Assembly (NCBI RefSeq): GCF_018156225.1
Contig: NZ_JAGTAR010000015.1
Span: 62,001 to 126,000 of the forward strand
From: Carboxylicivirga sediminis
Lineage (GTDB): Bacteria; Bacteroidota; Bacteroidia; Bacteroidales; Marinilabiliaceae
DNA: 64,000 nucleotides
Reading direction: 5' to 3'
Both the position numbers and the translations under genes were made by a program. The notes beneath the pieces were generated by a model. That model made no database searches. It was not told the origin of the DNA and saw only the letters and a program-made list of their open reading frames with translations. Shown in pieces: positions 15,481-39,967 of the stretch. Within the stretch, counting starts at the first letter, position 1; every line of letters begins with the position of its first letter.

Positions 15481-16914
15481 TTATTTTTGAGTTACTTCCT
15501 TTTTCCATTCTTCATGTATTTTTGTAAGTTCCTCGATTATCTCCGGGAATGATTCAGCTACATTGTTTTGCTCTGATATGTCTTCTGCCAAATTGAAAAG
15601 CTCAACACCCTTACCTAAATTAGTATGTTGCTTTTTTGCTATTTTATCAGCTATATTTTGATCCAGAACTACTTTTAGCTTCCAATCACCTTTGCGAACG
15701 GCCCATGCAAATTCAACATCCCAAACCATTGTATTCCGTTCAATTTCTTTCTCATGCAAAATATTAGGCAAAAGATTTAAACCGTCTGATTCTGTATAAG
15801 CTTCTTCTGTCGCACCTGCAGCAGACAATAATGTTGGCATCAAATCCAAAGTACTAACCATAATATCATTAGTAGTGTTTTTTTCAATCTTATTTTCCCA
15901 ATGGATCAACATTGGCACTCGAATTCCACCCTCGTAAAGAGAATATTTAGTACTATATAGGGGAGTATTGTCGCCTCCGCTACAGTTTGAACCGCCATTG
16001 TCTGTGGTATAAACTATAACAGTATTATCATCCAATCCAAGTTCCTCTAATTTCTTTCGAATGGCACCAATTTCCCTATCCATATAATGCAGCTGTGCAT
16101 GGTAATAATCTCTGCCATGAGGTAGGTTAGGAATAATGGATTGATCATACCATACATTTCGAGATATTGAACCATCTAATTCTTCAAAATCAGGATAGTA
16201 AGGAAGATTCCATTCTTTTAGATACTTTTTAGGTAATTGAAAGGTAAAATTATGGACTGCATTAAAAGCTATTTGAAGAAAAAAAGGTTTCTTCTGATTC
16301 TTTTCAATAAACTCCTGAGACCAACTTGATATTTGTTCTGTGGAAAAACCATCTTCCGTAAGTTCCTTTCCGTTCCTTAGCCAATGTTCAGCTGGAAGCC
16401 CATGGTGCTTCATCGCTTCATCATTATGGTATAAGTAGTGCACCCTACCTCCATGGCCGGCTGTGACACATTCATCAAAACCGTGATTATTAGGGTAATT
16501 ATACGAAGCAGGACTATCATCTTCACCATAGTGCAATTTCCCAAAATAACCGGTTACATATCCTAAATCTTTAAATCCCTGAGCTATGGTTTTAGTGCCA
16601 TCGGCAATTCCTGATCCGCCGTAAAAATAATTACCATTACGTGCCTGGTACTGCCCGGTTATTAAGCCAACGCGAGAAGGACTACAAATAGGACTCGTTA
16701 CATATGCATTTGTAAACGACATGCTTTCTGCTGCCAATTGATCCAGATTCGGTGTTTTTAAATCATGGACACCCAAATAGTTCATATCTGCATAGCCATG
16801 GTCGTCTGAAACGATAAGGATTACGTTTGGCGACTGGGCATTGACAGTAGTATGCTGAAAGCCGAAAACAAGAATTACAAAAAGCAGGTAATAGCCTTTT
16901 CTCATAATATTCAT
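15481..16914 (-). CDS. Secreted sulfatase (family S1)
   Basis: A 477-aa arylsulfatase-type enzyme with signal peptide (ending VNAQ). The first metal-binding Asp pair is in IVSDDHGYADM; the sulfatase signature is CSPSRVGLITG with Cys77, the residue converted to formylglycine by an anaerobic or aerobic maturase. Further conserved pieces are GYFGKLHYG and TTDNGGSNCSGG (second metal site). The Cys-type signature means the active-site Cys must be modified in the cytoplasm. It is the last gene of the PUL operon, 69 bp beyond the 1037-aa protein, and likely removes sulfate esters from the polysaccharide or its oligosaccharides. The specific subfamily cannot be assigned by eye. Confidence 0.9.
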   Translation of the reverse strand: MNIMRKGYYLLFVILVFGFQHTTVNAQSPNVILIVSDDHGYADMNYLGVHDLKTPNLDQLAAESMSFTNAYVTSPICSPSRVGLITGQYQARNGNYFYGGSGIADGTKTIAQGFKDLGYVTGYFGKLHYGEDDSPASYNYPNNHGFDECVTAGHGGRVHYLYHNDEAMKHHGLPAEHWLRNGKELTEDGFSTEQISSWSQEFIEKNQKKPFFLQIAFNAVHNFTFQLPKKYLKEWNLPYYPDFEELDGSISRNVWYDQSIIPNLPHGRDYYHAQLHYMDREIGAIRKKLEELGLDDNTVIVYTTDNGGSNCSGGDNTPLYSTKYSLYEGGIRVPMLIHWENKIEKNTTNDIMVSTLDLMPTLLSAAGATEEAYTESDGLNLLPNILHEKEIERNTMVWDVEFAWAVRKGDWKLKVVLDQNIADKIAKKQHTNLGKGVELFNLAEDISEQNNVAESFPEIIEELTKIHEEWKKEVTQK

Positions 16915-16983
16915 AATGTATTGTTAATGTGTAATAAATTTTTTTACTTAAAAACGATGTATCATTTAACACTAGATAGCTGC

Positions 16984-19900
16984 CTAATATTTAATTACTT
17001 TGTGCACTTCGAAACTATTCTTCAAAGAGAAATGCAGCAGATAAGCACCTGGCTGACAAGACCTGAAGTCAACGCAAGTGTTCTTATTTTCTAATTCTTG
17101 ACATGAAACTTTTTCTCCACTCAAGCTATAAACAACCAATTTAGAGCTTTCTATGTCGCTAGGAAAAAATACATTTAGTTCATTAATTACCGGATTAGGG
17201 TAGATTCTAATTTTGTTTTCAGATACTTCTGATTTTGCTAATAAATTAGTGTCACTTTTGATTTCCAGTATTCTAAAAGCTCCTGCCGGAATAGTTACGT
17301 TCATAGTTGGGTTAAGTGTCCCCATTTCTTCATTACTGATCCTGTCCTTCACGGACCACTCACCTTCTTTATTGGCCGTAATACTACTTAGGCAATCACC
17401 ACCCGGACTCATGAGGTTTGGATCTACAAGGTAAAGCAAGTAGTGGTCTTCGGCAATTCTGTTGACTGAAGAAAAAACTTCTCCGGTAATAATCACAGGG
17501 AACATATCTATATCTTCAGTTCCCTTGCTCATAGCTTCAAGTACTCGTTCTTTCGTTTGACTTAGAGATAAAACTTCGTCATCTATTGAAGCCGTTTCTC
17601 CGTCGGATTCAATTTGTGTTGTGAAGTATGAAATATCAATATCAGAACGATTGTTTGGTTTTCCGATTATAGGGGCGTAGCCATAACCATGCCCTAGGTT
17701 TGGAATGTGATTATGGGTCTGTTGGTAACGTCCGTAAGTATAAGCTGCCCAGTCTGTTTTAGGAGTTGTGGCACTACCCCATTCAACACCCATTTTGGAT
17801 AATAGACCAAAGCCATCGGCCTGAATATAACCTTTATGCGTTTGACTTCCAGTATTAAAGTCATGTCCGCCACTCGTCCAATAAGCTTCTGGAACTAACT
17901 CTTCTTTGAGCGTTAGGGTAACAGGCGAAATATTCAATAAGTTTTCTCTTTGAGGAGGTGCGATAATACCTTTACCTAAGAGGTGAATAAACTGCTCAAC
18001 ACCAGTTGACATCGAATGCATTTCCTCTCTTTTTTGCTGATTGTACTGGCGACTGCATATATTTAAATAATTTGCACCCAAAGACACCGCTGTTAACAAC
18101 GAACGAGATGCCGGATGACCTGTATTGACCCGGCTCCAGTCCCAAAGGCGGGAATAGGCAGGTATATCGCTCACCCATCGATACCCCCAATTGTTAACGT
18201 ATCCTGCATACCATGCACCTACACGTCCCGCTGTATTTAAGTCAGGAGTTCGTGAGTTGCTGTCTTCATTGCTCATGATTAAAACATCTTTGTATTTCTC
18301 GGAAATGATTCCTGATTGCATCCAGGACATTTGGGATCGAACGGCCCAAACAGCACCCTTGTTATGAAACCACACATTTTTGCCCTTTTCCTTTGCATAG
18401 TCCATTAATGGTAACATAAAGTCACGAATAAAAAAATCCTGCTTACCCTTCTCGTTCACTTCAAAAGGACTATAGGCAAAACCATATTCGACAATACCGA
18501 CTCCCAGATAGGCATTGGGTGCGACATCCATCATGGCTTTATATGTATCAAGCGAAACCTGAATGCCGTGCGCTTTGGAATAGAACGGAATACCTTCTTC
18601 CTCCATTCTTCTGGCAAAGGTGAGAAGTGTTTCTTTCGATAACCCTTTTTCTGCTTCAGTAACCCAAGTACCATCAGGATTTTGATATTGGAAGTAACCT
18701 GTCCAATTTTCATATAGTTGAACTCTAAAAGCAAACTTAATGCGATCGGGATATGGGAATTTTTGATTGTAATAAGCTAACTCATTCTTCCAGATGCTAA
18801 TCCAATCTTCCATAGTAACATCATTAAGGCCATCTCCCTGAGTACCATTAACCTGAATTATAATGGGCTTATCAGAAGGCAGATCAACTGCAACACCAGC
18901 CCAATTGTTAATATTGGTTTGAATATTAGAATAAGCATCCGAAATACTCTTCATCTGACCACTCCAGTCCCTCTGAGCTAGTTCTGTAAGCCATTCGGAA
19001 GAATTATCAGGGCTTATCAAGTAAAGGTTGTCATCGCCATTAGGAGCACCAGCCAAAAGAATTTTGTCCTGCCCACTCTCAGATACCGTAGTTACATCAT
19101 TAAAAGACAGCTGATTAGTTCTCCTATAGGCTAAAAGCTGAGCACTAGATGAGTACAAAAAGACATCATCACCATAGACCATAGCCACCTGTTTTTCATC
19201 ACTCCCAAGCAGGTAGTTGCCAGAACTCAGGTATTTTGCACGGTAACCAGAGGCATAATCATCTTTTTCAATAGAAAATCCACTATTACTGTACGTAACA
19301 CGTTTCATTCCATCCAAAGGATCAATAAAACCTTTGTCATCAAAAATAAGAGCTTCTCCATTCTCTTTTGTATACAGAAGTGCATTTTGACCATGATCAC
19401 TACGATTTAATCCCAGTTCGACCTCTGAAAAGGAACTGATAGGCGCAAAGGAAGGGAAAGCATAAATATTGCCATATTGCTCGTTGTCTCTATATGCCCT
19501 GTTTAGGTACACATCTTCTGTACCGTTGCGGTCAAAGTCATAAACCAACAGCTCCCTAATTGCTCCATCAAACTTATGTTTCGAGATAATGGTACCTTCT
19601 GCGTTTATAACAAAAACATAATTGAGTACAGTGCCTGCTAATATGTAATTCTCACCTTCAGATTTTATGTGAGCTACAGAAAATACAGGTCCACTTTGCA
19701 ATCCGGTTGTCCATAGCCGATCCCCTTTGCTGTTATAACAATAGACCGAATCATCGGCGCAGCCAAGTATTACCTCTTCAGATTCATCACCAATAATGTC
19801 TCCTGTACAGATATCGAAACAAAAGCCTCCTGTTTTATCTTGCCACAATTTTTCTCCCGCCATATTGGTTCCAAACACATCGTAATTATATGTTGAGCCA

Positions 19901-20097
19901 ATGATTTTTTGTTTCACCACATCACCTTTGTTGATAACCTTCAGACGATAAGCATTTAGCCCATTAAGGTTAAGTACTTTAATGTGATATGATGAATTGG
20001 TCGTTTTATTATTTTTTATTCCTGGCACAGCAACGCTTTCTTGTGCTATAAAAAACAAACCAAAGATGCTTAATATGATAAAAATGTGTTTATTCAT
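16984..20097 (-). CDS. Secreted beta-propeller/TIM-barrel-like enzyme with T9SS domain; candidate GH150-like lambda-carrageenase
   Basis: A 1037-aa exported protein (signal peptide ending SVAVPG). Residues ~50-370 are a PQQ/FG-GAP-like beta-propeller with repeats such as DICTGDIIGDESEEVILGC and VYDFDRNGTEDVYLN. Residues ~390-870 look like a (beta/alpha)-barrel catalytic region with many aromatic and acidic residues (WISIWKNELAYYNQKFPYP, GVGIVEYGFAY, KNVWFHNKGAVWAV, YKDVLIMSNEDSNS). The C-terminal ~80 residues are a type IX sorting domain (IRIYPNPVINELNVFFP to the end). Propeller plus separate catalytic region is the described layout of lambda-carrageenases such as CglA, and the neighbours are sulfatases and a beta-galactosidase. 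That identity is inference; a different family is possible. Confidence 0.6.
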   Translation of the reverse strand: MNKHIFIILSIFGLFFIAQESVAVPGIKNNKTTNSSYHIKVLNLNGLNAYRLKVINKGDVVKQKIIGSTYNYDVFGTNMAGEKLWQDKTGGFCFDICTGDIIGDESEEVILGCADDSVYCYNSKGDRLWTTGLQSGPVFSVAHIKSEGENYILAGTVLNYVFVINAEGTIISKHKFDGAIRELLVYDFDRNGTEDVYLNRAYRDNEQYGNIYAFPSFAPISSFSEVELGLNRSDHGQNALLYTKENGEALIFDDKGFIDPLDGMKRVTYSNSGFSIEKDDYASGYRAKYLSSGNYLLGSDEKQVAMVYGDDVFLYSSSAQLLAYRRTNQLSFNDVTTVSESGQDKILLAGAPNGDDNLYLISPDNSSEWLTELAQRDWSGQMKSISDAYSNIQTNINNWAGVAVDLPSDKPIIIQVNGTQGDGLNDVTMEDWISIWKNELAYYNQKFPYPDRIKFAFRVQLYENWTGYFQYQNPDGTWVTEAEKGLSKETLLTFARRMEEEGIPFYSKAHGIQVSLDTYKAMMDVAPNAYLGVGIVEYGFAYSPFEVNEKGKQDFFIRDFMLPLMDYAKEKGKNVWFHNKGAVWAVRSQMSWMQSGIISEKYKDVLIMSNEDSNSRTPDLNTAGRVGAWYAGYVNNWGYRWVSDIPAYSRLWDWSRVNTGHPASRSLLTAVSLGANYLNICSRQYNQQKREEMHSMSTGVEQFIHLLGKGIIAPPQRENLLNISPVTLTLKEELVPEAYWTSGGHDFNTGSQTHKGYIQADGFGLLSKMGVEWGSATTPKTDWAAYTYGRYQQTHNHIPNLGHGYGYAPIIGKPNNRSDIDISYFTTQIESDGETASIDDEVLSLSQTKERVLEAMSKGTEDIDMFPVIITGEVFSSVNRIAEDHYLLYLVDPNLMSPGGDCLSSITANKEGEWSVKDRISNEEMGTLNPTMNVTIPAGAFRILEIKSDTNLLAKSEVSENKIRIYPNPVINELNVFFPSDIESSKLVVYSLSGEKVSCQELENKNTCVDFRSCQPGAYLLHFSLKNSFEVHKVIKY

Positions 20098-20291: not shown

Positions 20292-21893
20292 TTAAGCTGA
20301 TTCTGATAAACCTATATTACGCATTGTTTTTGTCTCATGAGCTTGTAGATTTCGACATATTTGGCTCTGCAACCATTGATATACATCTGCCCCAGTGGTG
20401 GAAGTGGGATACAGCTTAATATTGAGTTCAGATAATCCTTTGACTGATGCAGAAGGTGTAATGTCAGAAGATTCCTTAAAAATAAAACGTGAATATGATA
20501 GCGGGGGAAGGGTTATGGGAATATGGTTTTCTTGTATTGAATCCACATTTGTTGAAACAAGCTCACCAAATTCATCAAGCGTATTCACCAGGGATTTGCT
20601 TTCCACAATTTCCAAATTACTACCCTTATCAATAAAGACATTAGCAACCTTTTCATGATTTGATTTATTAATAAGATAGAGCAGATACTCCCCATCTTTT
20701 TCCACTGCAAAACCATAAGTTGAGGGGTTGTTTTCATCCAACATTTGTAACATATTCCCTCCTTGGGCTTTAGCCAGCAATTCAAAACCGTATCTCATGG
20801 GATTGTATCGCATACTATGATTAAAAGCGATCAAGGCATCTTTATCATCTTTTCTGTTGCTTACCCAATACCAATAGCAGGTCATATACCAGTTACCAAT
20901 AAAGTGCTCCTGCAACATATCTATCATCAATAAACTCGTTGTATATCGATCAAAACCAATTAAATTCGATTTTTTACCCGTGCCATATTCGTTGTTCGCA
21001 AATTTTAAATCTGGGTAACCTAATTCTTTAGCCCATTTTCTTAATGAGTCTGCTTCGGTTCGCCATGCACGATTGTGATTTTTTCTATCCCGCAAAGGTC
21101 TTTCAATCTGCCATTCATTAAATGTTCCCGGCTCGTACTCCTTTGGATTACCTCCGTATGGCCACTTTCCATGGGTTTCGACAATGTCTGCATAATCCCC
21201 TGCAATCTTAAGGTATTGCCTCAGGTACTTTTTTGTCATGTTATTATGGTTAAACATACATTTGATATCAGGATCAACCTTCTTCATTGCTTTAACATGT
21301 TGAACAAATAGATGAGCTTCGTTTTCCCAACCTCCGTTTTTGCCTTCATTTCCTAAATACCAAAATGCACCACCAAAACCTTTGCTTTTTACATATTCAA
21401 CCATTCTTACCGCGCGTGCAATACTCTCATCTATTTTACCGTACTTGTAACCTGACGTGATGTTTACTCCAAGCAAAGGTGTTATTCCCGAAATTTTTAC
21501 CATTTCAAGATATTCATCCAGACTGGTCCAATCTTTCGATACTGTATTTTTGGAGTTATCCCAATCAGGGTTGAATGGGTCGCCTTGCATAACTCCTGTG
21601 GGGTTTTCCCAATCCCAATACTTAACAACTCCACCGCCAGGATACCTCATAGTACCTACATCAACTATTCTCATCCAATTTGTGAAATTGCTTCGCTCAT
21701 AGAGTGAATCGCCGTCGTTACAATAAACAGAGTGCATGCCAACCAGATAATCGCTGATTTTCCATTTAACACTATCGGGATATACTTCAAAGTTTATTGA
21801 CTGACGACTTTCATTATTGCTATTATTAGGAATATCTCCCCCAAATATCTCCCCCAATGCACACAGCATTATTAACACTACCGCAGCTGCCAT
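20292..21893 (-). CDS. Putative clan GH-A glycoside hydrolase, C-terminally frameshifted
   Basis: The 533-aa product has a signal peptide and a (beta/alpha)8-type glycosidase body. MRYPGGGVVKYWDWENPTG (82-100) is the PGG strand seen in GH51/GH39/GH79/GH86-like enzymes; the putative acid/base is Glu183 in WYLGNEG and the putative nucleophile is Glu302 in FANNEYGTG. A beta-sandwich follows (~420-480: YLLYLINKSNH, PPLSYSRFIF). The family cannot be fixed by eye. The last ~40 residues are a T9SS sorting domain that leaves frame and stops early, so the enzyme may be retained or lost unless frameshifts are corrected. It is flanked within 5-200 bp by PUL genes on the same strand. Confidence 0.7.
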   Translation of the reverse strand: MAAAVVLIMLCALGEIFGGDIPNNSNNESRQSINFEVYPDSVKWKISDYLVGMHSVYCNDGDSLYERSNFTNWMRIVDVGTMRYPGGGVVKYWDWENPTGVMQGDPFNPDWDNSKNTVSKDWTSLDEYLEMVKISGITPLLGVNITSGYKYGKIDESIARAVRMVEYVKSKGFGGAFWYLGNEGKNGGWENEAHLFVQHVKAMKKVDPDIKCMFNHNNMTKKYLRQYLKIAGDYADIVETHGKWPYGGNPKEYEPGTFNEWQIERPLRDRKNHNRAWRTEADSLRKWAKELGYPDLKFANNEYGTGKKSNLIGFDRYTTSLLMIDMLQEHFIGNWYMTCYWYWVSNRKDDKDALIAFNHSMRYNPMRYGFELLAKAQGGNMLQMLDENNPSTYGFAVEKDGEYLLYLINKSNHEKVANVFIDKGSNLEIVESKSLVNTLDEFGELVSTNVDSIQENHIPITLPPLSYSRFIFKESSDITPSASVKGLSELNIKLYPTSTTGADVYQWLQSQICRNLQAHETKTMRNIGLSESA

Positions 21894-21898
21894 CCTAT

Positions 21899-23896
21899 TT
21901 ATTTTAAATTAAAATATAAATAACAAGTATCTGTGTTTTTGCCATCGGAAACAGTTACTTGTGTAATACACCTTCCTTCTTGAGCATTGTTACTATCAAT
22001 ACGCAACTTCCCTTTTGCATCGATAGAAACAAAAGATGGTCCGGTAACTTTTTCAAAACGTAAGTCACAATTTTCAGGATTTGTAACACTCTGATTCAAG
22101 TCCTCTTCGTAATCATTAAATACATTAACTGTTTTAATTTTTCTCTTCCTGAACTGAAAACGAGGTGCAATGCGATTGTCGAAATTTCCTGTTTTTACAT
22201 TGATTTGCACCATTGTAAGGCTTAGTGGCTGTAATGAGAATTCCATTTCCCTCTGATTACCACCTATTGTAATTGTTTTACCAAAATCAGACAATTCAAG
22301 AGCTGTAATTTCATTTTCTGAAAACCTTTTAGCATAATTGCCAAACTCAACTACCTCGTTGAAGTTTAGTTTCACTTTTTGCTCTACATCCTTTTTATTC
22401 AATAAATAGGCATAAATAATTTTTGGCACTTCGGCGTTACAACTGCCCATCTTAGCTGATGGCTCAACAATAAATACCTGAGTTTTGGCTTCTGTATTAC
22501 CACTTTTCGATTGATATTCAAATAGTTTTGAAGGTTTCTCGTTTACTTGTCTTATTCCTTCACCTATTAATCCGGTGCTATAGAGTATTGGGTTATAACG
22601 ATATTCTCCATTTTTAGTATAGGAGATACTTTGATTATCCTTTAATCCTATATTACCTTCATAATTTCCCTTGATACCTCCATAAAAACAAGCATACGGA
22701 AATCCGGCTTCTGTTAATTCCATTACAAATTGAGTATTTACCAATCCTATTTGAAAAGTTGTGTAATCAGGTAACTTACTTTCTTTTGCTCTAGTATCAA
22801 TCCCATTTGCATGAGGTATCAATTGAATTCCGGGATAGCCTTTAGATTCACAATATGAAGTTAACCAATTATAAATCTGTTTTGTATTACCCATTCCTTG
22901 GTCGGCAATAAAGCCAAATGTCATATCGCTTTCATCCAACCACTGATTCCATGAGCGACGATAGTGCATTGAACAACCTAAGAAACTAACATCATCACCG
23001 GAAGCATCTAACATTTTATCCAGTTCACCTCTTAAAAACTTTACAGGTGTTGGAATTTTAGTTCCACCTTTTTCACATTCCTTAAACTGCACCATCCACT
23101 GAATATTCTTACCTAATTCTTTAGCAAAACTATCAGCATCATTTATGTATGCTTGTATTGTTTCAGCAAGCCACTCCCCTTTGTTTTTATTTACTAATTT
23201 CCATGGGTATATATTATCGTCCCATCCGATAAAAATTTCACCTCCTACCTGAATAACAGGGTAATCAGGGCCACCCAGTTCAAAATATCTTTTAAGAAAT
23301 CGTCGATTTTCCAAAAACTGCATCTCCCTGCTTGATAATTTAGCTGCTTGTTCGGGAGTCATTAATTCACCATGTAATGTATATGGCTCCGGATCACGAT
23401 AAAACAAACGATTATTGTTTTCATCGTAACTATACAATTCGCCCGAACGCCATGTCATACAAATTATTGGCTTTGCATTTGTTGTTTTTAGTACATCCAC
23501 AAAGGCATCCAAATCAATCATCTCATTACGCGGCGCACTATTATTTATATCGTAATTTTGATCCCAGATATTCCCTGCCGCTTTAGTCCTGTATGGGTTC
23601 GTTTTACCGTAATAGGTTGTATGATTATTGTCCCAATGAGTAATTAACAAATTATCGTGTCCGGCACTTGGCCATCTTAATGAGCCGGCTCCGTAGTTTT
23701 TTATAGCATCTGTGTATTGACTGCTTTTAGCAAACTCACTTGTACTACATCTATCAAGCATTCCTAACCCATTAACTCCATCAGCTATTTCTTTTGCATT
23801 CTGATGCAAATCAACACTATACACTTCCACCTCCTGACCTGTAACTGAGAATACTTTTACAAGTGCGATAAGAATGGAAACTAAATATTTTTTCAT
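21899..23896 (-). CDS. Secreted glycosidase-like protein (putative clan GH-A) with C-terminal Ig-like domain
   Basis: A 665-aa protein with signal peptide (VFSVTGQ). The N-terminal ~450 residues look like a TIM-barrel: GAGSLRWPSAGHD corresponds to the RxPGG strand of GH-A relatives, PVIQVGGEIFIGWDD to the strand carrying the acid/base Glu, and SFLGCSMHYRRSW to a later active-site strand. A beta-sandwich (~470-575) follows, then a ~90-residue putative Ig-like domain (APRFQFRKRKIKTVNVFND, ITQVTVSDGKNTDTCYL). No T9SS domain is present. Stop and start of this and the next gene are 5 bp apart. It may act on the same galactan, but no known family could be assigned. Confidence 0.6.
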   Translation of the reverse strand: MKKYLVSILIALVKVFSVTGQEVEVYSVDLHQNAKEIADGVNGLGMLDRCSTSEFAKSSQYTDAIKNYGAGSLRWPSAGHDNLLITHWDNNHTTYYGKTNPYRTKAAGNIWDQNYDINNSAPRNEMIDLDAFVDVLKTTNAKPIICMTWRSGELYSYDENNNRLFYRDPEPYTLHGELMTPEQAAKLSSREMQFLENRRFLKRYFELGGPDYPVIQVGGEIFIGWDDNIYPWKLVNKNKGEWLAETIQAYINDADSFAKELGKNIQWMVQFKECEKGGTKIPTPVKFLRGELDKMLDASGDDVSFLGCSMHYRRSWNQWLDESDMTFGFIADQGMGNTKQIYNWLTSYCESKGYPGIQLIPHANGIDTRAKESKLPDYTTFQIGLVNTQFVMELTEAGFPYACFYGGIKGNYEGNIGLKDNQSISYTKNGEYRYNPILYSTGLIGEGIRQVNEKPSKLFEYQSKSGNTEAKTQVFIVEPSAKMGSCNAEVPKIIYAYLLNKKDVEQKVKLNFNEVVEFGNYAKRFSENEITALELSDFGKTITIGGNQREMEFSLQPLSLTMVQINVKTGNFDNRIAPRFQFRKRKIKTVNVFNDYEEDLNQSVTNPENCDLRFEKVTGPSFVSIDAKGKLRIDSNNAQEGRCITQVTVSDGKNTDTCYLYFNLK

Positions 23897-23990
23897 GCCT
23901 ATATTTTTTAAAAAAATGGTAAGGTCGCCTGTACCTTTTTCCTAACTATCTGAATATCGGGAGAGTTCGGAGAAATACAATATTAACTTT

Positions 23991-24029
23991 ACTGATCTTC
24001 GATTCTCAATGATAGAATCGAAGATCAGT
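23991..24029. repeat. Long intercistronic hairpin in the PUL operon
   Basis: A perfect 16-bp inverted repeat ACTGATCTTCGATTCT / AGAATCGAAGATCAGT with a seven-base loop, between the 430-aa T9SS protein gene and the 665-aa glycosidase-like gene. No T run follows. A stable mRNA hairpin here could protect the upstream transcript or limit downstream expression. Confidence 0.7.
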
Positions 24030-24056
24030 ACTTGCAATACCTTTTATCAAGCCCTT

Positions 24057-28343: not shown

Positions 28344-28385
28344 CTGTTTAAAATTTATCTTTAGTATGTCAGATGCAACGCTCAA

Positions 28386-30867: not shown

Positions 30868-30868
30868 C

Positions 30869-32371
30869 TTACAACTCCGGATTTAATTCTAATTCATTTT
30901 TTGGTAAAGGATAGTATCGATTTGTATCATCTACAACAATCGGTTTTTCACCACTATTTTCTATTTTTTCGACGAATTTATCGTGTCTGATTAAGTCTTC
31001 TTTTCTCTTTCCTTCATTAAAGAACTCCCATGCTCTTTCCTGCAATATGGCTTCTCTTAATTGATCTTGAGTTAAATCAGAAGGTAAAGCTTCAAGACCA
31101 GCTCGTTGACGAATGGCATTGACTTTAGCAAAAGATTCAGTATCACCTGCATTAATCTCATTTAGAGCCTCTGCCTCACTTAGTAAAACATCAGCATATC
31201 GTAGCACGGGTAAGTTGACTTTTTGAAACATATCATTTCGTAAATCAATGCCTTTGCCAGCATCTCCATGTGGATATTTATTATGGAAGAATAGAAGTGA
31301 TTTTCCTTTCGGTCCAGGCCCCTTAAACCCTGGCTGAGGTTTACCATTTGCAGCCACTGGTTTAATTATTTCACCATCTCTGTTTATCCATTGATGGCGC
31401 ATAACATCAAGCCATCGTTTATCATTCTCCTGATCAAATGAATAATAGAATTTTAGTTCCATCGAGAATATCTTGCCTGATCCAAAATAATCTGAAGCAA
31501 AATCATATTGAAAAATTGCCAAATCAGTCGATCCTGAATTTGCTGAACCTAAATTTTTATCAAAAGCATCATCTGATATCATTACATTGAACAAAACTTC
31601 ATGATTTAATGGATTGGTTGGATCCCAAAGGTCATTGTACTCGGGCAACAAGTCATATTTATTTAATTGCCTTATTTTTTCAGCCACACTAACCACCTCA
31701 TTCCATTGCTTGGTTCTTAAGTGTGTTTTTAATAACAGGCCTAATGCCGCACCTTTTGTTACAGCTCCTGGTCGCTGCTCTGGCGCATCCACATCTAATA
31801 GATTTATGGCCTCATTTAATTCATCAGTAATAAATTTGTTAATATCTTCCCAACTTGATAATTCATATTTTTTTTCTGGGTCATAATGCGAGTTAGTAAT
31901 CAATACCACGCTTTCAAATAATGAAGTTAAATCGTAATAAGCCAATGCACGTAAAAATTTAATTTCCCCTTTTACTTTAATGAAATATTCATCATTAAGT
32001 GGTTCAGGCATTTTCTCAAGCATAACATTTGCCCTGTTAACGGTATTGTATATATCGCCATATATATCTTGAAAAACAGATTCTTCTGGTGTGTAGGTAA
32101 ACTCGTTAAATATTTTTGTTACACCACTTCCCTGAGAGATATCGGTTGGCACCTCTTGCAAAAAAAGATACCATCGCTGATAATAGCCCCCTTTTTCCAT
32201 GCCCAACAGGCTAGAGTACAAACCTGTTAATGATGAGTTTAGTTCCTGTTGTGTAGTGAATTTTTTACTTACAGGAGTACTTAATAACTCTTCCTCCAGA
32301 AATCCATCACAAGCAGATGTAATTGTAGCAAGCGATAAGAACAGAATTATATATTTTTTTATAAATTTCAT
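30869..32371 (-). CDS. susD: SusD-like glycan-binding lipoprotein
   Basis: A 500-aa RagB/SusD family surface lipoprotein. The lipobox is TITSAC with lipidated Cys21. The TPR-like helices and the family's signature pieces are present: TTQQELNSSLTGLYSSLL, FLRALAYYDLTSLFE, and near the C-terminus YADVLLSEAEALNEI and ERAWEFFNEGKRKEDLIRHD. It forms the lid of the SusC transporter and binds the incoming glycan. It lies 4 bases downstream of susC. No SusE/F-type gene follows; the 430-aa surface protein could fill that role. Confidence 0.93.
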   Translation of the reverse strand: MKFIKKYIILFLSLATITSACDGFLEEELLSTPVSKKFTTQQELNSSLTGLYSSLLGMEKGGYYQRWYLFLQEVPTDISQGSGVTKIFNEFTYTPEESVFQDIYGDIYNTVNRANVMLEKMPEPLNDEYFIKVKGEIKFLRALAYYDLTSLFESVVLITNSHYDPEKKYELSSWEDINKFITDELNEAINLLDVDAPEQRPGAVTKGAALGLLLKTHLRTKQWNEVVSVAEKIRQLNKYDLLPEYNDLWDPTNPLNHEVLFNVMISDDAFDKNLGSANSGSTDLAIFQYDFASDYFGSGKIFSMELKFYYSFDQENDKRWLDVMRHQWINRDGEIIKPVAANGKPQPGFKGPGPKGKSLLFFHNKYPHGDAGKGIDLRNDMFQKVNLPVLRYADVLLSEAEALNEINAGDTESFAKVNAIRQRAGLEALPSDLTQDQLREAILQERAWEFFNEGKRKEDLIRHDKFVEKIENSGEKPIVVDDTNRYYPLPKNELELNPEL

Positions 32372-32375: not shown

Positions 32376-35300
32376 TTAAAATTTTAAATTAAGGGTTAAT
32401 AGATAATTACGACTCTGAGGAGATCCATTCTGATCCAGTCCTAGGTTAGTATTCGTATTGCCGGTGCTACTCTCCGGATCAAACCCGCTGTAATTGGTTA
32501 TAGTAAATAAGTTTTGTGCTGTTACAGATATGTTACAACTTTTTAAGAATTCACTTCGATTTAAATTTAAGTCATAACCCAATGTTAGATTTTGTAATCG
32601 TACATAACTAGCATCTTCAACAAAATAGTCGCTGGCAAAACTACCGTACTGAGTTGTTTTCCATGAGCCACTTTTTGCAATTGGAGTATCCGTATTAATT
32701 GGGGTCCACCTGTCTAAAGCAGTATCCCAGAATCGAGATTCATTTTTTGCTCTATTCACATTGAACCTATCCACATCAAAGCTACCGGTAAATTGGGCAC
32801 CTAAATACCATCTTTTATAGGATAAATTTAAATTTAAAGCAGCTCTGTATTTTGGAAGTCCATGACCTAAAATAGTTTTGTCTTGTTCATCTATTACTCC
32901 ATCTTCATTAAGATCCTTGAATAGATAATCTCCGGGTTCACTATTAGGCTGCAATGTTTGCTCATCATTTTCTTGAATAATTCGGTCGGCTTTATAGCCA
33001 TAGAACGTACTAATTGGTTGACCAACCATCCATCTGTTATAATCAATCGTACCTTGTCCAATACCTACATTATAGCCTGTTAATAACATCGTATTTTCAT
33101 TAGGCAAGACATCTACTTTATTATCGTTATAACTGAAGTTACCATTCATTTCGAGACTCAAATGATTGGCTAATTTAATTTTCCCCGATAAATTTATTTC
33201 AAACCCTTCGTTTGAGACGACACCATCACTTACTATAATCGTTTTATGACCATAATATTGATTTATGGGCATGTTAAAAATTAGATTGGTTGTCTGCTTA
33301 TTATAATAATCAAAACTCAAAGACCATGGCGTATTGGTTAATATTAAATCTAACCCAACATTGCTTTGTTTTGTCTTTTCCCACTGTAAGTCTGTGTTCG
33401 CAATATTCCCAGGTGCTAGTCCGGTAATTAGGTTGTTTCCATCAAAAGTATATTTCGTATAAACTCCATCCATTTTTACCAAAGAAGCTCCTTCGGCAAT
33501 ACCATTAATATTACCTGTTAACCCATAACCCAGTCTTATTTTAATACCTAATTTATCTTTAAGGTTTCCGACAAACCCTTCTTCACTTAACCACCAAGAA
33601 GCACCTGCAGAAGGGAAAAAACCCCATCTATTATCCTTTGGTAGAACGCTTGCCCCATCATAACGCATCGAAGCTGTCAGGTTATATTTTAGTCCAAAGC
33701 TATACTCTGCACGTGCTAAATAACCTAATGTTGAAGGACTTATCACAGAACTAGCAGGATTGGTAAATGAACTAGCCATACCGAGATTGTTAAACGAAAC
33801 GTCTTCGGTTGCAAAACCTTTAGCTGTTATGTCAAACAACTCTTTTCTGTTCTTTTCTGCTGATACACCAGCTAAGGTTACTAGTTTGTGTTTGTTCCAT
33901 TTATTATTGTAAGTCACTAAAAAGTCGCCTAATAATTTTGAAGATCTTGCACTACTTTTTTTGGCCATCCCTGACAATCCATTTGCGTCTATTGCACCTT
34001 CTTTAGTAGTGCTTGGGAAGAATCTATTCTTTAAATCATTATTATATATATAACTACCAGTAAGCTTAACATCTATTTTTTTTGTCAGTTTATAATTTAA
34101 TTGTGTACTTAAAAGAACATTATAAACTTTATTGTTTTTTTCTACATCATATAGATATGGTAATGGATTTGTACCAGCTACACCAACCGGAGGCTCACCA
34201 TATGTACCATCCTCGTTATAAAAAGGAATTAAGGGATTAACCTGTAATATATTATACATTACACTTTCACTACTAGACCCAGGAGAGTAATTAGTATAAT
34301 TAGCATCGATGAAAGCTGTTTTTATATTATTACTGATAGAAAAATTTTTAGATAATTGACTACTTGTTTTAACACTAAAAGTGTACCTTTCAAAATCAGT
34401 ATTTTTCAATATTCCTTCTTGATTAGTATAGCCTAATGAAACAAATACCTGGTTTTTTTTATTCCCTTTTATAAAATTAAGGTTATGATCCTGATAAAAA
34501 GCCGTACGGAATGTTTCATCTATATAATCATAGCCATCACCCATATTTGCAATTTCCTCATCTGAATAAATAGGATCATTCCCTTCGGCTTCTGCAACTT
34601 CATTTTCAATCTTTGCCAACTCAGATGCCGGGGCATACTCAAATGGTCTGATTAATTTTTGAATACCGAACTTAGAATTATATGCAATAAGCCCTTCTGT
34701 TTCTGCCGCATCTTTTGTTTTAATTAGTATTACACCATTAGCTCCCCTTATTCCATAAATTGCTGCAGCACTTGCATCTTTTAAAATATCAATACGTTCA
34801 ATTATCGAGGGGTCTATCGTATTGTTCATCTCCGGGTCAATGGGAATTCCATCTACCACGTATAAAGGTTCACTTGATAAATTGATACTATTACTTCCTC
34901 GAATCCTGATCTTAGGCAAAGCATTTGGATCTGCACCTCCTGATTGTATAACATTAACACCTGCAGTCATTCCAGATAAAGTGCTTCCCACATCTTTATT
35001 TAATCCCTTAGGTATATCTTCACTTGATACAGATGCAACCGCTCCTGTAACATCCCTCTTTTTCTGAGTACCATAACCAACAGCTACTACTTCATCCAGG
35101 CCAATGGCAGCAGGCATCATCTGCACGTCAATGGTCAATTCCCTACCTACTACCACCTCCTGGTTAGCCATCCCTATAAATGAGAATTTCAAGACGGAAC
35201 CAACAGGCACATCGGATATAATATAGTTGCCATTCATATCGGAAATCGTACCATTTGTTGTTCCTTTTATTAACACATTTACACCCGGAAGAGTCTCGCC

Positions 35301-35486
35301 TGTTTCATCCTTTATGCTTCCACTAATGGTCTTCTTTTTCCTGGAACCTGCATCTTGCGAATAACTATTCTGTGTAGAGGTAACCCCTAACAACAATATC
35401 AGGAATAAAAAAATAAGCTTCCTTTTTAAATTCAATTCGGATGCTGCTATTCTCGATAAGCACCTTATCACATGTTTTTTTTTCAT
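32376..35486 (-). CDS. susC: SusC-like TonB-dependent outer-membrane transporter
   Basis: A 1036-aa TonB-dependent receptor. An N-terminal signal segment is followed by a carboxypeptidase-regulatory-like domain (GSIKDETGETLPGVNVLIKG), the plug (VGYGTQKKRDVTGAVASVSS; IRIRGSNSINLSSEPLYVVD) with the characteristic SusC plug motif, and a 22-strand barrel ending QSRNYLLTLNLKF. It imports oligosaccharides with SusD. The gene is the first of a ten-gene leftward operon divergent from the HTCS gene. The upstream region is AT-rich and includes a G/C hairpin in the leader. Confidence 0.94.
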   Translation of the reverse strand: MKKKHVIRCLSRIAASELNLKRKLIFLFLILLLGVTSTQNSYSQDAGSRKKKTISGSIKDETGETLPGVNVLIKGTTNGTISDMNGNYIISDVPVGSVLKFSFIGMANQEVVVGRELTIDVQMMPAAIGLDEVVAVGYGTQKKRDVTGAVASVSSEDIPKGLNKDVGSTLSGMTAGVNVIQSGGADPNALPKIRIRGSNSINLSSEPLYVVDGIPIDPEMNNTIDPSIIERIDILKDASAAAIYGIRGANGVILIKTKDAAETEGLIAYNSKFGIQKLIRPFEYAPASELAKIENEVAEAEGNDPIYSDEEIANMGDGYDYIDETFRTAFYQDHNLNFIKGNKKNQVFVSLGYTNQEGILKNTDFERYTFSVKTSSQLSKNFSISNNIKTAFIDANYTNYSPGSSSESVMYNILQVNPLIPFYNEDGTYGEPPVGVAGTNPLPYLYDVEKNNKVYNVLLSTQLNYKLTKKIDVKLTGSYIYNNDLKNRFFPSTTKEGAIDANGLSGMAKKSSARSSKLLGDFLVTYNNKWNKHKLVTLAGVSAEKNRKELFDITAKGFATEDVSFNNLGMASSFTNPASSVISPSTLGYLARAEYSFGLKYNLTASMRYDGASVLPKDNRWGFFPSAGASWWLSEEGFVGNLKDKLGIKIRLGYGLTGNINGIAEGASLVKMDGVYTKYTFDGNNLITGLAPGNIANTDLQWEKTKQSNVGLDLILTNTPWSLSFDYYNKQTTNLIFNMPINQYYGHKTIIVSDGVVSNEGFEINLSGKIKLANHLSLEMNGNFSYNDNKVDVLPNENTMLLTGYNVGIGQGTIDYNRWMVGQPISTFYGYKADRIIQENDEQTLQPNSEPGDYLFKDLNEDGVIDEQDKTILGHGLPKYRAALNLNLSYKRWYLGAQFTGSFDVDRFNVNRAKNESRFWDTALDRWTPINTDTPIAKSGSWKTTQYGSFASDYFVEDASYVRLQNLTLGYDLNLNRSEFLKSCNISVTAQNLFTITNYSGFDPESSTGNTNTNLGLDQNGSPQSRNYLLTLNLKF

Positions 35487-35899
35487 ACTTTTGAATTAAT
35501 TAACCTGAATATTTTCCAATATTTAAAATTAAAACCGGGGGCGTCCAGACCTTCGGTTTTTTTGATGATTCAATAAACCAACTAAATAATAATTAATAGT
35601 AATACTATAATTATTGATGCAATAAATAAGGAAAGCGTCATAACCTGAAAACGTACTTTTAATTTCATGATACAATAGTAAGGTCTATCAAAATAAATGC
35701 ATATAACAAAAAGACATAATTCAACAATTTTTAAGACAATAGAAGCAATCTTCGCTCAATACTACCTAATAAACAGCGCAATACATACAACGTCACTTTG
35801 CAATACAACAAATCAGACAATTAAAATAAATAATAAGACATTGCGATTTTTAAGTCGACATTTTCCCTTATTTTTAGAGATATTAAAATTTAAGCCTTA
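35487..35899. promoter_or_regulatory. Divergent PUL regulatory region (susC / HTCS)
   Basis: This 413-bp region separates susC from the HTCS gene. It holds a G/C hairpin (35531-35560: AAAACCG / CGGTTTT) flanked by AT-rich DNA, which on the minus strand sits in the susC leader and could act as an attenuator or sRNA terminator. No exact TAnnTTTG box was found with a matching -33 box in either orientation. A 67-codon open frame directly before the HTCS gene shows no coding signs and is not called. Confidence 0.6.
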
Positions 35900-38800
35900 A
35901 TGAAAATTACAAATTCCAGAAAAGGAGTATGGGTTCTTTGGTTATTTTTAACTTCATTTCAACTCACTTATTCCAATTCTATAGATATTAGATTTGAGCA
36001 TATAGGATTAAAGGAGGGATTGCCTACTAATAGTGTTCTTTCTTTTGCCCAGGATCATGATGGATTTATGTGGGTTGGAACTTCAAACGGATTATTCCGG
36101 TATGATGGATACACATTCGAACAACCGTTTTATACCAATAATATAGGTTTAGGTATTGAATCGGCTATATCAGCTCTTATTGTCGACAAAAATAATTCAT
36201 TATGGGCAGCCACCAATAATGGCCTGTTGCTCATTGATTTAAACACTTACAAAACAAAAGCATATGTAAATAAGCCAAATAACAACAACTCTTTATGCAA
36301 TAACGAAGTCAGAGCTTTGTTTATTAATAAAAATGACCAAGTTTGGATTGGGACGAAAAATGGCTTATCTGTATTTAATCCGGGAGATCAATCATTCAAA
36401 AATTATTACCATCAACCTAATGTAGAGACCTCATTAAGCCATAATATTGTTCGTGCAATAGCAGAAGACTCAAAAGGGAATATTTGGGTAGGCACGTATG
36501 ATGGTTTAAATATATTCTCCCCGGTAACCGAATCGTTTACTAAACTTAAATTAACTAATAAGTTGGATAATCAAGCACCTAATGATCTCGTATTAGATTT
36601 AAAAACGTATAGCATATTACCTAATCATATTTTTGCCGGCACCAATAAGGGTTTATTCAAAATTGACATATCTTCAAAGGAATTCCAAACATTCTATGTT
36701 ACCAAGGATAAGTATAAATCGCCATCAAATAATACCATTAAATCCATTGGGCCTTATATTAATGGTAAAATTCCTTTAGGAACAGATTTTGGTTTTAATT
36801 TATTTTCTCCATTTGAAAGAACATTTGAGCACTTTTTTTATCAACCTAATAATATCAGAAGCATATCTAATAATGTGATAAAATGCACATATATTGATGC
36901 CTCGGGTACAATGTGGATTGGCACTAACAATGGGATAAATATTTTTGACATCAACAAAGCACAATTTAGCTTCAATAGGATAAATAATACCAATCTTGAT
37001 TTTACTGATTATGATATTGCATGTTTCGCAGAGTCAGATAAAAATATTTGGTTTGGCAGTGGTAATGGAATAGCTTTTGTAAATAAAAAGACCGGGAAAT
37101 TCAATAGTTATCCTACTGATTCAAAAACCAATGATCTTCATATCGATAGGGAAGGTAGTCTTTGGGCTGCAACAGTTCAGGGGGTATTCAAAATTAATGA
37201 AAAAAGGAATACATTCGATATCTTCTCGGAAAACACCTCTAAACTTGGATTGTCTACAAACTTTACCAACACAGTAATTGAAACTGAGGATAATAGTATT
37301 TGGATTGGAACAAGTGGTCATGGTATCAATAGAATATTTCGTTCAAGAAGCATTAACGGTGAATTAAAAGAAGACAGTGTTGCCCATTATAGTAATCATT
37401 CTGGATTCTCCATACCATCAGATAAAATTCAAACATTATTGGAAGATCAAAATTATTTATGGGTCAGCACCAATGGAAATGGAGTTTTTAGGATTAATAT
37501 AAATACTAATGAATATGAGGTTTATACCGTTAAAACGACTAAAGGCAACCTCCTGTCAAATACTTGCTATGATATAATTAAACTACCTAACAAGAGTTTA
37601 TTATTCTGCACATCTAAAGGAATATGCTTATTTGAAAAGGGACATTTCCGAGAAATTATTATACCAGGCATCTCAAATTCCAAAGTAATAAATGGGATAT
37701 TAACTCCGGAAGGATCATTATGGCTATCAGATTATACAAAACTTTACAGATTTGCCAACTACTCTCACGATACCTACCAAAGTTTTGAAATCGAACGGAC
37801 CTTGCCAATAGGTGTATTTAACAAACGTTCGTCTTTATTAACTGAAAATGGACAGCTACTATTTGGAGCTATAAATGGGGTAGTATCATTTTACCCTCAG
37901 CAATTTACTTCCAATAATTTCATTGCACCAATTCAAATTAGTTCAATTGAAGTAAATAACGAGATGATTCTTCCTGGTAAAGATTTAAATAACCAGAAGA
38001 CAATTAGCAAACCCATTCATTTTGAAGACCTGATACATCTTAAGGAATCTGACAGAAACATTGTAATTAACTTTGCTTCCATGCACTTCTCCGGCCTCTA
38101 TGAAAATAATTACAGTTATAAACTAGAAGGATTTGATACAGAATGGAATTATACCACTGGTGATAAAAATTACGCTCGATATTCGAACCTTAGAAAAGGA
38201 AATTACACATTCATTCTTAAGGCTACCAATAATGATGATATTTGGATGCCTGATGAGAAAATAATCAAATTTAAAGTGGCACCATATTGGTATGCCAGTC
38301 CTTGGGCTTTTGTACTATATGCCATATTAATATTCTCATTCACCTATATGGGTATTAAACTAATTATAGCTGACAAGGAAAAAAGTCATATTAAATTAAT
38401 TAATAAGATTAAACTCCAATTCTTTACGAATATTTCACATGAGTTTAAAACCCCTTTAACTCTGATTCTCCTTCCCCTTGAAAATATCCTAAGAACTAAA
38501 CCTATCCACCCAGAAGAATATATTGAATCTGTAAATATAGCTCATAAGAATGCTATAAAATTAAAAAATCTCATTGATCAATTGATGCTATTTAGAAAGA
38601 TAGATGCTGGAAAAATGAGACTGGCAGTTAATCAGTATAATTTTGTTGATTTTGCTCAAAGTATCTTTAAGGCTTTTGAATTCAGCTTTAAGGATAAAGA
38701 ACTTGATACACGATTAATCACTTCTGAAACTAAAATTCAATTGTGGTTTGACCAACAAAAAATGGAAATGCTATTAAATAATCTTCTTTCGAATGCATTA

Positions 38801-39967
38801 AAATTCACCCAAAGACACGGTAGTATTAAGCTATCTATTGAGGAAAAAGCAAAATACATAATAGTATCAGTTAGTGATTCCGGCAAGGGCATTAGTAAAG
38901 AAAACCAAAAGCATATCTTTGAACGTTTTTATCAGGATGACCATAACCGAAACCAATCAGGGACTGGCATTGGATTAAATTTAGTGAAAGATATTGCAGA
39001 ATTGCATCATGGCAGTGTTGCGGTTGAAAGCGAAGCTGGAAAAGGCTCCTGTTTCAAGGTGAAATTATTAAAAGGGAAAAGTCATTTTGATTCAAATACT
39101 GATTTTGCATTCACATCTACTGAGAAAAATGAATATCCGGAAATTGATATAGTTCATAATTCATCATCACAAAATATTAATGATGGTGATTCAGTTGAAG
39201 GACAAAAGGAAAAGAACACTATCCTTATCGCAGAAGATAATGATGAGATCAGGAAGTATATCATCAAGCATTTACACCCTTTTTACAATTTTATTGAGGC
39301 AGCTGATGGTAAAGAAGCACTGAAAAAAGTAAAAGATACGGAGGTTTCATTAATAATTTCAGACTTAATGATGCCAATTATGGGAGGTAATGAATTTTGC
39401 CAGATGGTTAAGGAGGATGTTTTATATTCTCACATACCATTCATTATGCTGACTGCAAAATCCTCGATAGACCAGAAAATACAAGGATTGTCTGAGGGTG
39501 CTGATGCATACATAACTAAACCATTTGATTTCACACATTTAAAAGTTACAATAGATAATTTAATAGTAAATAGAGAAAAACTAAAAAAGAAGTATTCAGA
39601 AAACCTGATCATCGGGCCAAATGAAATTAAAATTGAGTCACTTGATGAGAAATTTCTGAGATCGACACTGGCTATAATTGAAGAAAACATTGCTAATTTC
39701 GACTTAAGTGTTGATAATCTAGCAAGTGAACTGAAAATCAGCAGCAAACAACTTTATAGGAAAATTAAAGCATTAACCGATCAAACACCAATTGAATTAA
39801 TTAAGGAAATGAGACTTAAACGCGCAAAACAGTATCTGGACAAGAATGGCGCTAATATTTCTGAGATAGCATACTCTTGCGGGTTTGCTACTCCAGCCTA
39901 CTTTACCAAGTGCTTTAAAGAGAAATATAATTGTACACCCACTGAATATAAAAAAAATAGGTCATAG
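35900..39967 (+). CDS. Hybrid two-component system sensor-regulator (HTCS)
   Basis: A 1355-aa single-protein two-component system that controls PULs. The N-terminal periplasmic sensor has Reg_prop propeller repeats (DGFMWVGTSNGLFRYDGY, GNIWVGTYDGLNIF, GTMWIGTNNGINIF) to ~720, a Y_Y_Y domain (SYKLEGFDTEWNYTTGD, ~737-790) and a membrane helix (~800-825). A histidine kinase follows with phospho-His in NISHEFKTPLT (~847) and HATPase motifs NNLLSNALKF, SDSGKGIS and GTGIGLNLV. A receiver (~1108-1225, phospho-Asp in ISDLMMP) and an AraC-type HTH (~1267-1355) complete it. Gene is divergent from susC, so the operon is its expected target; oligosaccharide of the PUL glycan is the likely signal. Confidence 0.95.
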   Translation: MKITNSRKGVWVLWLFLTSFQLTYSNSIDIRFEHIGLKEGLPTNSVLSFAQDHDGFMWVGTSNGLFRYDGYTFEQPFYTNNIGLGIESAISALIVDKNNSLWAATNNGLLLIDLNTYKTKAYVNKPNNNNSLCNNEVRALFINKNDQVWIGTKNGLSVFNPGDQSFKNYYHQPNVETSLSHNIVRAIAEDSKGNIWVGTYDGLNIFSPVTESFTKLKLTNKLDNQAPNDLVLDLKTYSILPNHIFAGTNKGLFKIDISSKEFQTFYVTKDKYKSPSNNTIKSIGPYINGKIPLGTDFGFNLFSPFERTFEHFFYQPNNIRSISNNVIKCTYIDASGTMWIGTNNGINIFDINKAQFSFNRINNTNLDFTDYDIACFAESDKNIWFGSGNGIAFVNKKTGKFNSYPTDSKTNDLHIDREGSLWAATVQGVFKINEKRNTFDIFSENTSKLGLSTNFTNTVIETEDNSIWIGTSGHGINRIFRSRSINGELKEDSVAHYSNHSGFSIPSDKIQTLLEDQNYLWVSTNGNGVFRININTNEYEVYTVKTTKGNLLSNTCYDIIKLPNKSLLFCTSKGICLFEKGHFREIIIPGISNSKVINGILTPEGSLWLSDYTKLYRFANYSHDTYQSFEIERTLPIGVFNKRSSLLTENGQLLFGAINGVVSFYPQQFTSNNFIAPIQISSIEVNNEMILPGKDLNNQKTISKPIHFEDLIHLKESDRNIVINFASMHFSGLYENNYSYKLEGFDTEWNYTTGDKNYARYSNLRKGNYTFILKATNNDDIWMPDEKIIKFKVAPYWYASPWAFVLYAILIFSFTYMGIKLIIADKEKSHIKLINKIKLQFFTNISHEFKTPLTLILLPLENILRTKPIHPEEYIESVNIAHKNAIKLKNLIDQLMLFRKIDAGKMRLAVNQYNFVDFAQSIFKAFEFSFKDKELDTRLITSETKIQLWFDQQKMEMLLNNLLSNALKFTQRHGSIKLSIEEKAKYIIVSVSDSGKGISKENQKHIFERFYQDDHNRNQSGTGIGLNLVKDIAELHHGSVAVESEAGKGSCFKVKLLKGKSHFDSNTDFAFTSTEKNEYPEIDIVHNSSSQNINDGDSVEGQKEKNTILIAEDNDEIRKYIIKHLHPFYNFIEAADGKEALKKVKDTEVSLIISDLMMPIMGGNEFCQMVKEDVLYSHIPFIMLTAKSSIDQKIQGLSEGADAYITKPFDFTHLKVTIDNLIVNREKLKKKYSENLIIGPNEIKIESLDEKFLRSTLAIIEENIANFDLSVDNLASELKISSKQLYRKIKALTDQTPIELIKEMRLKRAKQYLDKNGANISEIAYSCGFATPAYFTKCFKEKYNCTPTEYKKNRS

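Follow-up and report, generated by a model that had tools for sequence, protein, structure and literature searches.

The closest described systems to the locus analyzed here are the lambda-carrageenan polysaccharide utilization locus (PUL) of Pseudoalteromonas distincta U2A and PUL 8 of P. carrageenovora 9T. The lambda-carrageenan cascade described by Vickers et al. in 2025 (PMC12549532) has S1_8 sulfatases, which take off the 2-O-sulfate, an S1_15 6-O-sulfatase, a GH110 alpha-1,3-galactosidase, and a GH2 beta-galactosidase, and we used it as our yardstick. According to the same paper, the GH150A and GH150B enzymes both act on lambda-carrageenan and not on kappa- or iota-carrageenan. Here, we describe a locus within a 64,000-nucleotide stretch of Carboxylicivirga sediminis (contig NZ_JAGTAR010000015.1, positions 62,001 to 126,000; referred to as the window). 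It has ten leftward genes and a divergent regulator, encodes a remote member of GH150, and is carried by an integrase element. We tentatively propose that this SusCD-type locus serves a 2-sulfated galactan, one similar to lambda-carrageenan but probably not plain lambda-carrageenan itself.

The window locus has a GH150, an S1_8-type sulfatase, and a GH2 enzyme in common with the two Pseudoalteromonas systems. Those are also on mobile DNA, but on plasmids. Unlike them, the window locus has SusC/SusD proteins and a hybrid two-component system regulator (HTCS), two proteins that we call P0002 and P0003, an S1_20-like sulfatase, and a single, divergent GH150, whereas a search of the locus found neither GH110 nor S1_15. 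Other marine Bacteroidota have GH150 loci (Flammeovirga kamogawensis p1, Maribacter vaceletii, Labilibacter marinus, and Carboxylicivirga sp.), some with SusC, an HTCS, or sulfatases like those that we call S_C and S_B. However, their GH150s are 40 to 50% identical to P. carrageenovora CglA or 48 to 54% identical to its GH150B, unlike the window protein. GH110 was found in 10 of 38 stretches around such GH150s, and a P0002 match was found in none of those fetched. As in the window, GH150 is PUL-borne in Alistipes (K. sydneyanus) and in a Bacteroides xylanisolvens metagenome-assembled genome (PMC11748540, PMC13168452), but these are gut strains, likened by description only.

An earlier note on this DNA called GH150s and PUL-borne lambda-carrageenases rarely seen. 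That was overstated. A single pattern scan of genome contigs gave 32 GH150 loci, and PUL-borne GH150s have already been described (PMC6262041, PMC11748540, PMC13168452). Therefore, we do not regard a PUL-borne GH150 as a novelty.

A remote member of GH150

The 1,037-amino-acid candidate endo-galactanase is encoded at positions 16984 to 20097 (minus strand). Pfam CGLA_M and Beta-prop_CGLA matched it at 106.8 bits (cutoff, 27) and 89.3 bits (cutoff, 26.8), CGLA_C matched at 24.8 bits, just under its cutoff of 27, and its C terminus is a type IX secretion system (T9SS) sorting domain. Canonical GH150s of genome G154 score 478 to 634 bits on CGLA_M. Therefore, the window protein is a remote GH150 member. 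There was no match to an unrelated enzyme family. With its three CGLA domains, the protein bears out, at the superfamily level, the GH150 assignment suggested in the earlier note, although it falls in neither of the known clades.

Our yardsticks for these clades were P. carrageenovora CglA (clade A) and its second GH150, GH150B (clade B), which are 24 to 26% identical to each other. The window protein is 22.9% identical to GH150B over 926 amino acids and 26.4% identical to CglA over 435. After eight duplicate loci (L033 to L039 and L060) were dropped, a 49-row tree resolved 36 proteins with CglA in clade A and 10 with GH150B in clade B. The window protein, a second protein of the same genome (from the C41 locus), and one of Pontiella sulfatireligans fell outside A and B (support, 97/92). 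Thus, the window protein is in no clade that holds a characterized lambda-carrageenase, although its branch is long and its exact place is unsure. The source of OUC-CglA of Maribacter vaceletii, a characterized Bacteroidota lambda-carrageenase (PMC11202985), fell in clade A (locus L057). GH150 matches of genomes G814, G815, G816, and G821 were left out of the tree and are termed C41-type from the range that they matched.

Close relatives were scarce. CGLA_M was found in 2 of 395 Bacteroidota genomes (the source genome and one other). Protein searches with the GH150-like protein gave matches in 6 of 393 genomes of the order, one of which (G631) was to the T9SS tail only, and in 10 of 71 genomes of the family. 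Both counts include the source genome and cover only the first-look candidates that were scored, in many genomes 2 or 11 of more. Two of 72,556 plasmid records matched. These searches revealed one close relative, a 99% identical copy with an intact reading frame in a genome of another genus (G849). The other main matches were 20 to 29% identical, with short pieces up to 37%. The contig scan relied on a single pattern with F as its eighth residue, where the window protein has I, so close relatives are undetectable by that scan, and its loci extend at most 10 kb to either side.

An AlphaFold2 model made with 32 relatives was of moderate confidence (predicted TM score [pTM], 0.72; mean predicted local distance difference test score [pLDDT], 66). 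At that confidence it recovered the GH150 architecture of propeller, middle, and C-terminal domains: a propeller at residues ~27 to 361, a (beta/alpha)8-like domain at ~412 to 708, and a beta-sandwich at ~829 to 948, followed by the T9SS domain (limits read by eye from the secondary structure). We then compared conserved residues. The window protein keeps 36 of the 68 columns that are at least 95% conserved in clades A and B, and the C41 protein keeps 40. For the 103 columns conserved in clade A, the fraction kept is 0.56 to 0.61 in clade B, 0.51 in the window protein, 0.43 in the C41 protein, and 0.45 in the Pontiella protein; within the middle domain, it is 0.67 for clade B and 0.49 for the window protein. 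Residues common to A and B are kept at 7 of 11 acidic (D/E) and 6 of 12 basic (R/K/H) positions. Those kept include E611, D644, H510, K580, and R625/R640/R650/R665, and the first four lie at or just after predicted barrel strand ends, as judged by eye from the secondary structure of the model. The position of CglA D506 is a gap or non-acidic. This pattern is compatible with an active enzyme whose recognition of sulfate has changed, but it is proof of neither.

A Foldseek search of the PDB with the model returned many propellers and GH98 catalytic modules. Three S. pneumoniae GH98 chains aligned over 613 to 616 columns (TM score by target, 0.53 to 0.55; E = 5.5e-10 to 1.5e-9), and propeller matches ranked equal to or above them in the same list. 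Homology of GH150 and GH98 at the profile level was ruled out (hhalign probability, 0.6%). The likeness to GH98 endo-beta-galactosidases and endoxylanases is therefore a lead in fold only. A GH150 profile run against PDB sequences matched nearly always through its propeller part and found no glycosidase for its barrel part. We found no open-licence paper that joins GH98 with GH150.

Sulfatases and a GH51-like partner family

Pfam and NCBIfam models were used to assign domains to the locus proteins. Together with the open reading frames (ORFs), they bore out the earlier description of ten leftward genes under a divergent HTCS, among them those for SusC, SusD, a GH2 enzyme, and three formylglycine sulfatases. 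All three sulfatases matched PF00884 (E = 9e-35 to 1e-57) and have the C-x-P-S-R motif. Against the solved S1_8 enzymes, S_C (26823 to 28385, minus strand) scored 250 (S1_8A), 183 (S1_8B), and 156 (S1_8C) bits, compared with 106 bits for the best other, and so it is predicted to be a galactose-2-sulfate 2-O-sulfatase. The GH2 beta-galactosidase (28450 to 30867, minus strand) has GH2 domains, scored 596.5 bits for GalA without reaching the equivalog cutoff of 900, and matched the solved structures 3gm8 (701 bits) and 9bey (420 bits). By nearest solved structure in the case of S_C, these two components of the lambda cascade are both present. S_C is also 49% identical to a sulfatase of a Flammeovirga kamogawensis plasmid, where a single gene lies between it and a clade A GH150 in an operon that holds GH110 (58%) and an S1_15-like sulfatase (51%) as well.

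The other two sulfatases are less like those of the lambda pathway. The solved enzymes nearest to S_B (25409 to 26830, minus strand) are BT1622 and BT1636 (7ana, 323.7 bits; 7an1, 287.4 bits), which are S1_20 galactose/GalNAc 3-O-sulfatases (PMC10154620), and S_B homologues (39 to 45% identical) occur in five GH150 loci (L045, L046, L051, L052, and L072). S_A (15481 to 16914, minus strand; PF00884, 195.7 bits; motif CSPSR) is weakly nearest to kappa/iota-carrageenan 4-O-sulfatases (best, 6prm at 212.8 bits), and its subfamily is unsure. S1_15 was the nearest solved type for none of the three locus sulfatases, to which this search was limited; S_A and S_B score higher against others and are 27 to 28% identical to the P. 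carrageenovora S1_15 candidates. Our S1_8A/B/C, S1_15, and GH110A/B labels for P. carrageenovora genes were assigned via gene length, gene order, and PMC6262041, not from the record. Sulfatases specific for glycosaminoglycans or fucans were what the earlier note had named as evidence against its substrate, and the nearest solved enzymes are not of those types.

The earlier note also predicted two GH-A-like glycosidases, which are P0002 (533 amino acids; 20292 to 21893, minus strand) and P0003 (665 amino acids; 21899 to 23896, minus strand). P0002 alone gave weak GH51 matches, and with an alignment profile they reached E = 1.3e-22. All 14 solved sequences matched by the family profile are named arabinofuranosidases or arabinosidases. 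N182-E183 and E302 are invariant in all seven family sequences, and from their roles in clan GH-A we take them to be the acid/base NE and the nucleophile. None of the seven matched Pfam GH51 at an E value of 0.1. P0002 is a GH-A-like protein with a remote link to GH51, in a family without a Pfam model. P0003 fits the prediction less well, because it has no Pfam match and is related by profile comparison only (hhalign probability, 98.3% against the P0002 family alignment). The E302 position aligns to a non-acidic residue, and P0003, a remote P0002 relative, seems to have no nucleophile. At E = 1e-6, P0003 was found in 1 of 393 genomes, the source genome itself; among 24 GH150-bearing genomes or records, 3 had weak matches (E = 1e-4 to 7e-4). 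A plasmid search gave no match, the G849 copy is 99.5% identical in nucleotides, and a single-sequence model was uninformative (pLDDT, 31.5). The coding sequence for a T9SS tail of P0002 (20100 to 20300) looks frame-broken: the ORF stops early and the tail residues run on in another frame. The gene end and the 194-bp gap are identical in G849.

P0002 homologues are encoded beside the divergent GH150s. They are adjacent in the window and at Pontiella C3, and in the C41 locus they are in the same region. None of the 38 clade A or B stretches (one of which is a duplicate) had a P0002 match at an E value of 1e-5. Of 14 genomes in the genus, 5 had both GH150 and P0002 matches and 9 had neither. In all five, a pair is on one contig, ~16 to 30 kb apart. 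The P0002 match of G821, which has clade A/B GH150s as well, is partial, and one of the G815 copies contains a stop. The C41 locus is a very large second PUL region of the source genome (C41:0.3-68 kb; L086, L013, L011, L012, and L085). Besides the divergent GH150 and the P0002 homologue, it encodes GH2s, GH29, GH43, many sulfatases, and two SusC/SusD pairs. An integrase-like gene (C41:68782-69978, located by start only) and a tRNA-Arg gene come next.

The ten genes lie close together, with gaps of -8 to 194 bp; the S_C and S_B frames overlap by 8 bp, and SusC and the HTCS gene are 413 bp apart. The HTCS (35900 to 39967, plus strand) has Reg_prop, Y_Y_Y, HisKA, HATPase_c, Response_reg, and HTH_18 domains. 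On the minus strand are the SusC TonB-dependent transporter (32376 to 35486; TIGR04056, 801.5 bits) and SusD (30869 to 32371; SusD_RagB, 96.4 bits). What the earlier note called a surface T9SS protein is P0004 (430 amino acids; 24057 to 25349, minus strand), a secreted LamG-like protein and possible surface glycan binder. It does match Laminin_G_3 (19.7 bits) and Por_Secre_tail (16.8 bits), but weakly, both below cutoff. The gap between P0004 and P0003 holds a hairpin (23990 to 24030, minus strand) with a 17-bp perfect stem and a 7-nucleotide loop (z-score, -4.55; 0 of 200 shuffles as good), which is perhaps an intra-operon terminator or an mRNA processing site.

An integrase element carrying the locus

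A ~32.6-kb integrase element, whose ends probably derive from tRNA-Ser, carries the locus as cargo. A tyrosine integrase (13980 to 15287, plus strand; Phage_integrase, Phage_int_SAM_5, and Arm-DNA-bind_5) and terminal direct repeats are both present in the window. The repeat, CCTCTCTCTCCGCTGA, occurs there only twice, at 13813 to 13828 and 46419 to 46434 (both plus strand; 0 in 100 shuffles). In G849, one element end is inside the 3' end of a tRNA-Ser(tga) gene. There is no intact tRNA gene at either end in the window, nor in the 12 kb before it.

Window positions 13803 to 46431 align piecewise with G849 contig 311, positions 170923 to 138325. Gene by gene, the PUL from S_A to the HTCS is 99.1 to 99.7% identical in nucleotides, whereas the backbone genes are 81 to 89% identical (integrase, 89.3%; DUF6371 at 40042 to 41034, minus strand, 87.2%; DUF3987 at 41262 to 42617, minus strand, 81.2%). 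Sliding identity rises from ~0.83 to 0.99 near 15.01 kb and drops from 1.0 to ~0.87 near 40.11 kb, and these sharp changes delimit a common cassette at 15010 to 40114. The flanks, backbones, and cargo differ between the window and G849, which argues against simple contamination. Most likely, the backbones of the related elements diverged first, and the PUL was later transferred between them as a cassette.

The element also carries variable cargo. An AbiEii/AbiEi-type toxin-antitoxin pair (44427 to 46042, minus strand; PADLOC, 334.8 and 237 bits) was not matched by blastn in the part of G849 that was fetched. At that place, G849 has a 474-amino-acid protein (L130:13624-15048) with weak pAgo/CARF-type PADLOC matches, and the element seems to exchange its defence cargo. 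A second tyrosine integrase at 12378 to 13757 adjoins the left end, which suggests tandem elements at one site. GC content is 0.32 to 0.41 between 14 and 46 kb and 0.44 to 0.48 at 54001 to 62000.

Seaweed-polysaccharide PULs ride integrative elements in gut Bacteroides, and the window PUL is likewise the cargo of an integrase element. Unlike those, this element is found in two Marinilabiliaceae genera, has apparent tRNA-Ser ends, is ~32.6 kb long, and carries a divergent GH150. Putative integrative elements and lateral transfer are also mentioned in PMC13168452.

Possible substrates and what they would mean

In the pathway that we propose, the T9SS-exported GH150-like protein would act extracellularly and cleave a beta-galactosidic bond in the polysaccharide. 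The LamG-like protein, together with SusD and SusC, would bind and import the fragments, one of which the HTCS would sense to turn the operon on. Inside the cell, the S1_8-type sulfatase would remove galactose 2-sulfate, S_B and S_A might remove further sulfates, GH2 would remove terminal beta-galactose, and GH51-like P0002 would take the other linkage, which is the role of GH110 in the lambda pathway. A galactan is supported by the GH150 domains, the model with its propeller, barrel, and sandwich, the proximity of S_C to S1_8, the S_B homologues in five GH150 loci, and the GH2 enzyme. The earlier note's interpretation is partly supported. However, plain lambda-carrageenan is doubtful because the protein is outside both clades, the locus has no GH110 match and no sulfatase nearest to S1_15, and a GH51-like family is present. 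If the specificity of S_B is real, it also counts against plain lambda-carrageenan, on which a 3-O-sulfatase has no obvious place. A 2-sulfated galactan that only resembles lambda-carrageenan is therefore the reading that we prefer, and we hold it to be almost as probable as not.

Plain lambda-carrageenan is nonetheless a serious contender, if a rather doubtful one. The window protein would then be a third lineage of lambda-carrageenase, with GH110 supplied from C67 or unneeded and P0002/P0003 serving hybrid or branched parts. GH150A and GH150B act on lambda-carrageenan only despite 26% identity (PMC12549532), and the S1_8-type sulfatase and GH2 are as in the lambda pathway. The evidence from GH110 cuts both ways. 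Homologues (31 to 61% identical, besides P. carrageenovora's own) are near GH150 in 10 of 38 clade A or B stretches, and with one of the two P. carrageenovora GH110s as the query none was found in the window or C41 loci. But 28 of the 38 stretches, in a listing of ORFs of at least 300 amino acids whose best match spans half of the query, also lack GH110 within the fetched range, and a whole-genome search with the same query found a single homologue (29%) at C67, outside the window. Against plain lambda-carrageenan are also the change of 6 of 12 shared basic residues and the company of the genome's second divergent GH150, which sits with GH29 and GH43 in the C41 locus. That company, with its many sulfatases, and the arabinofuranosidase or arabinosidase names of all 14 solved P0002-profile matches would suit a mixed sulfated polymer, such as a sulfated arabinogalactan or a fucose-bearing galactan, with P0002 as an arabinofuranosidase-type enzyme. 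We consider this unlikely, because 2-sulfated galactose is what S_C and GH2 suggest, P0002 is only remotely similar to GH51, and no window locus protein had a Pfam match to GH29 or GH43. It is more improbable still, and very much so, that the 1,037-amino-acid protein evolved from a GH150 into a surface binder without catalytic activity. The loss of nearly half of the positions conserved in A and B and of an acidic residue at the D506 position would be expected of a binder, but the retained residues, several at barrel strand ends, would not. Nor would the retention of 51% of A-conserved positions, close to the 56 to 61% of clade B, or the intact frame of the 99% copy in another genus.

Several observations weigh against our preferred galactan, in addition to the C67 homologue and the 28 stretches. 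Divergence alone implies no new substrate, because clades A and B act on the same one at 24 to 26% identity. The branch of the window protein is 3.2 substitutions long, and the tree program cautions that the grouping of such long branches may be false. The sulfatase specificities rest on nearest solved structures. Co-occurrence within the genus does not amount to five independent events, because the five look like one inherited locus. P0002 also occurs apart from GH150: there are weak matches in seven genomes of the order without a GH150 match, extra copies elsewhere in G814 and G815, and homologues in fetched stretches without GH150, one on a Flammeovirga plasmid and others in tandem at Pontiella C2, which has two further copies. 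The Pontiella sulfatireligans tandem homologues (L104:2030-3550 and L104:7382-9952) look identical over their common stretch.

A broader proposal is possible, though we think it somewhat likelier to be wrong than right. GH150 might not be confined to lambda-carrageenan: two deep lineages (that of the window and the C41/Pontiella type), together with the P0002 family, might degrade a different sulfated galactan in members of two phyla, and this capability might spread between genera as a tRNA-Ser-element cassette, with the barrel a distant fold relative of GH98. We did not find the third GH150 lineage, the P0002 association, or the cassette transfer in the open-licence literature, in which the nameless P0002 family is not searchable by name.

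A third GH150 lineage with a different enzyme partner would test whether GH150s act solely on lambda-carrageenan, as the enzymes in PMC12549532 do. It also offers two unassayed candidate enzymes for sulfated galactans. Furthermore, a near-identical PUL cassette in elements whose other genes are 81 to 89% identical points to a seaweed-type PUL that travels from one genus to another in one piece, which is the kind of transfer inferred for gut bacteria.

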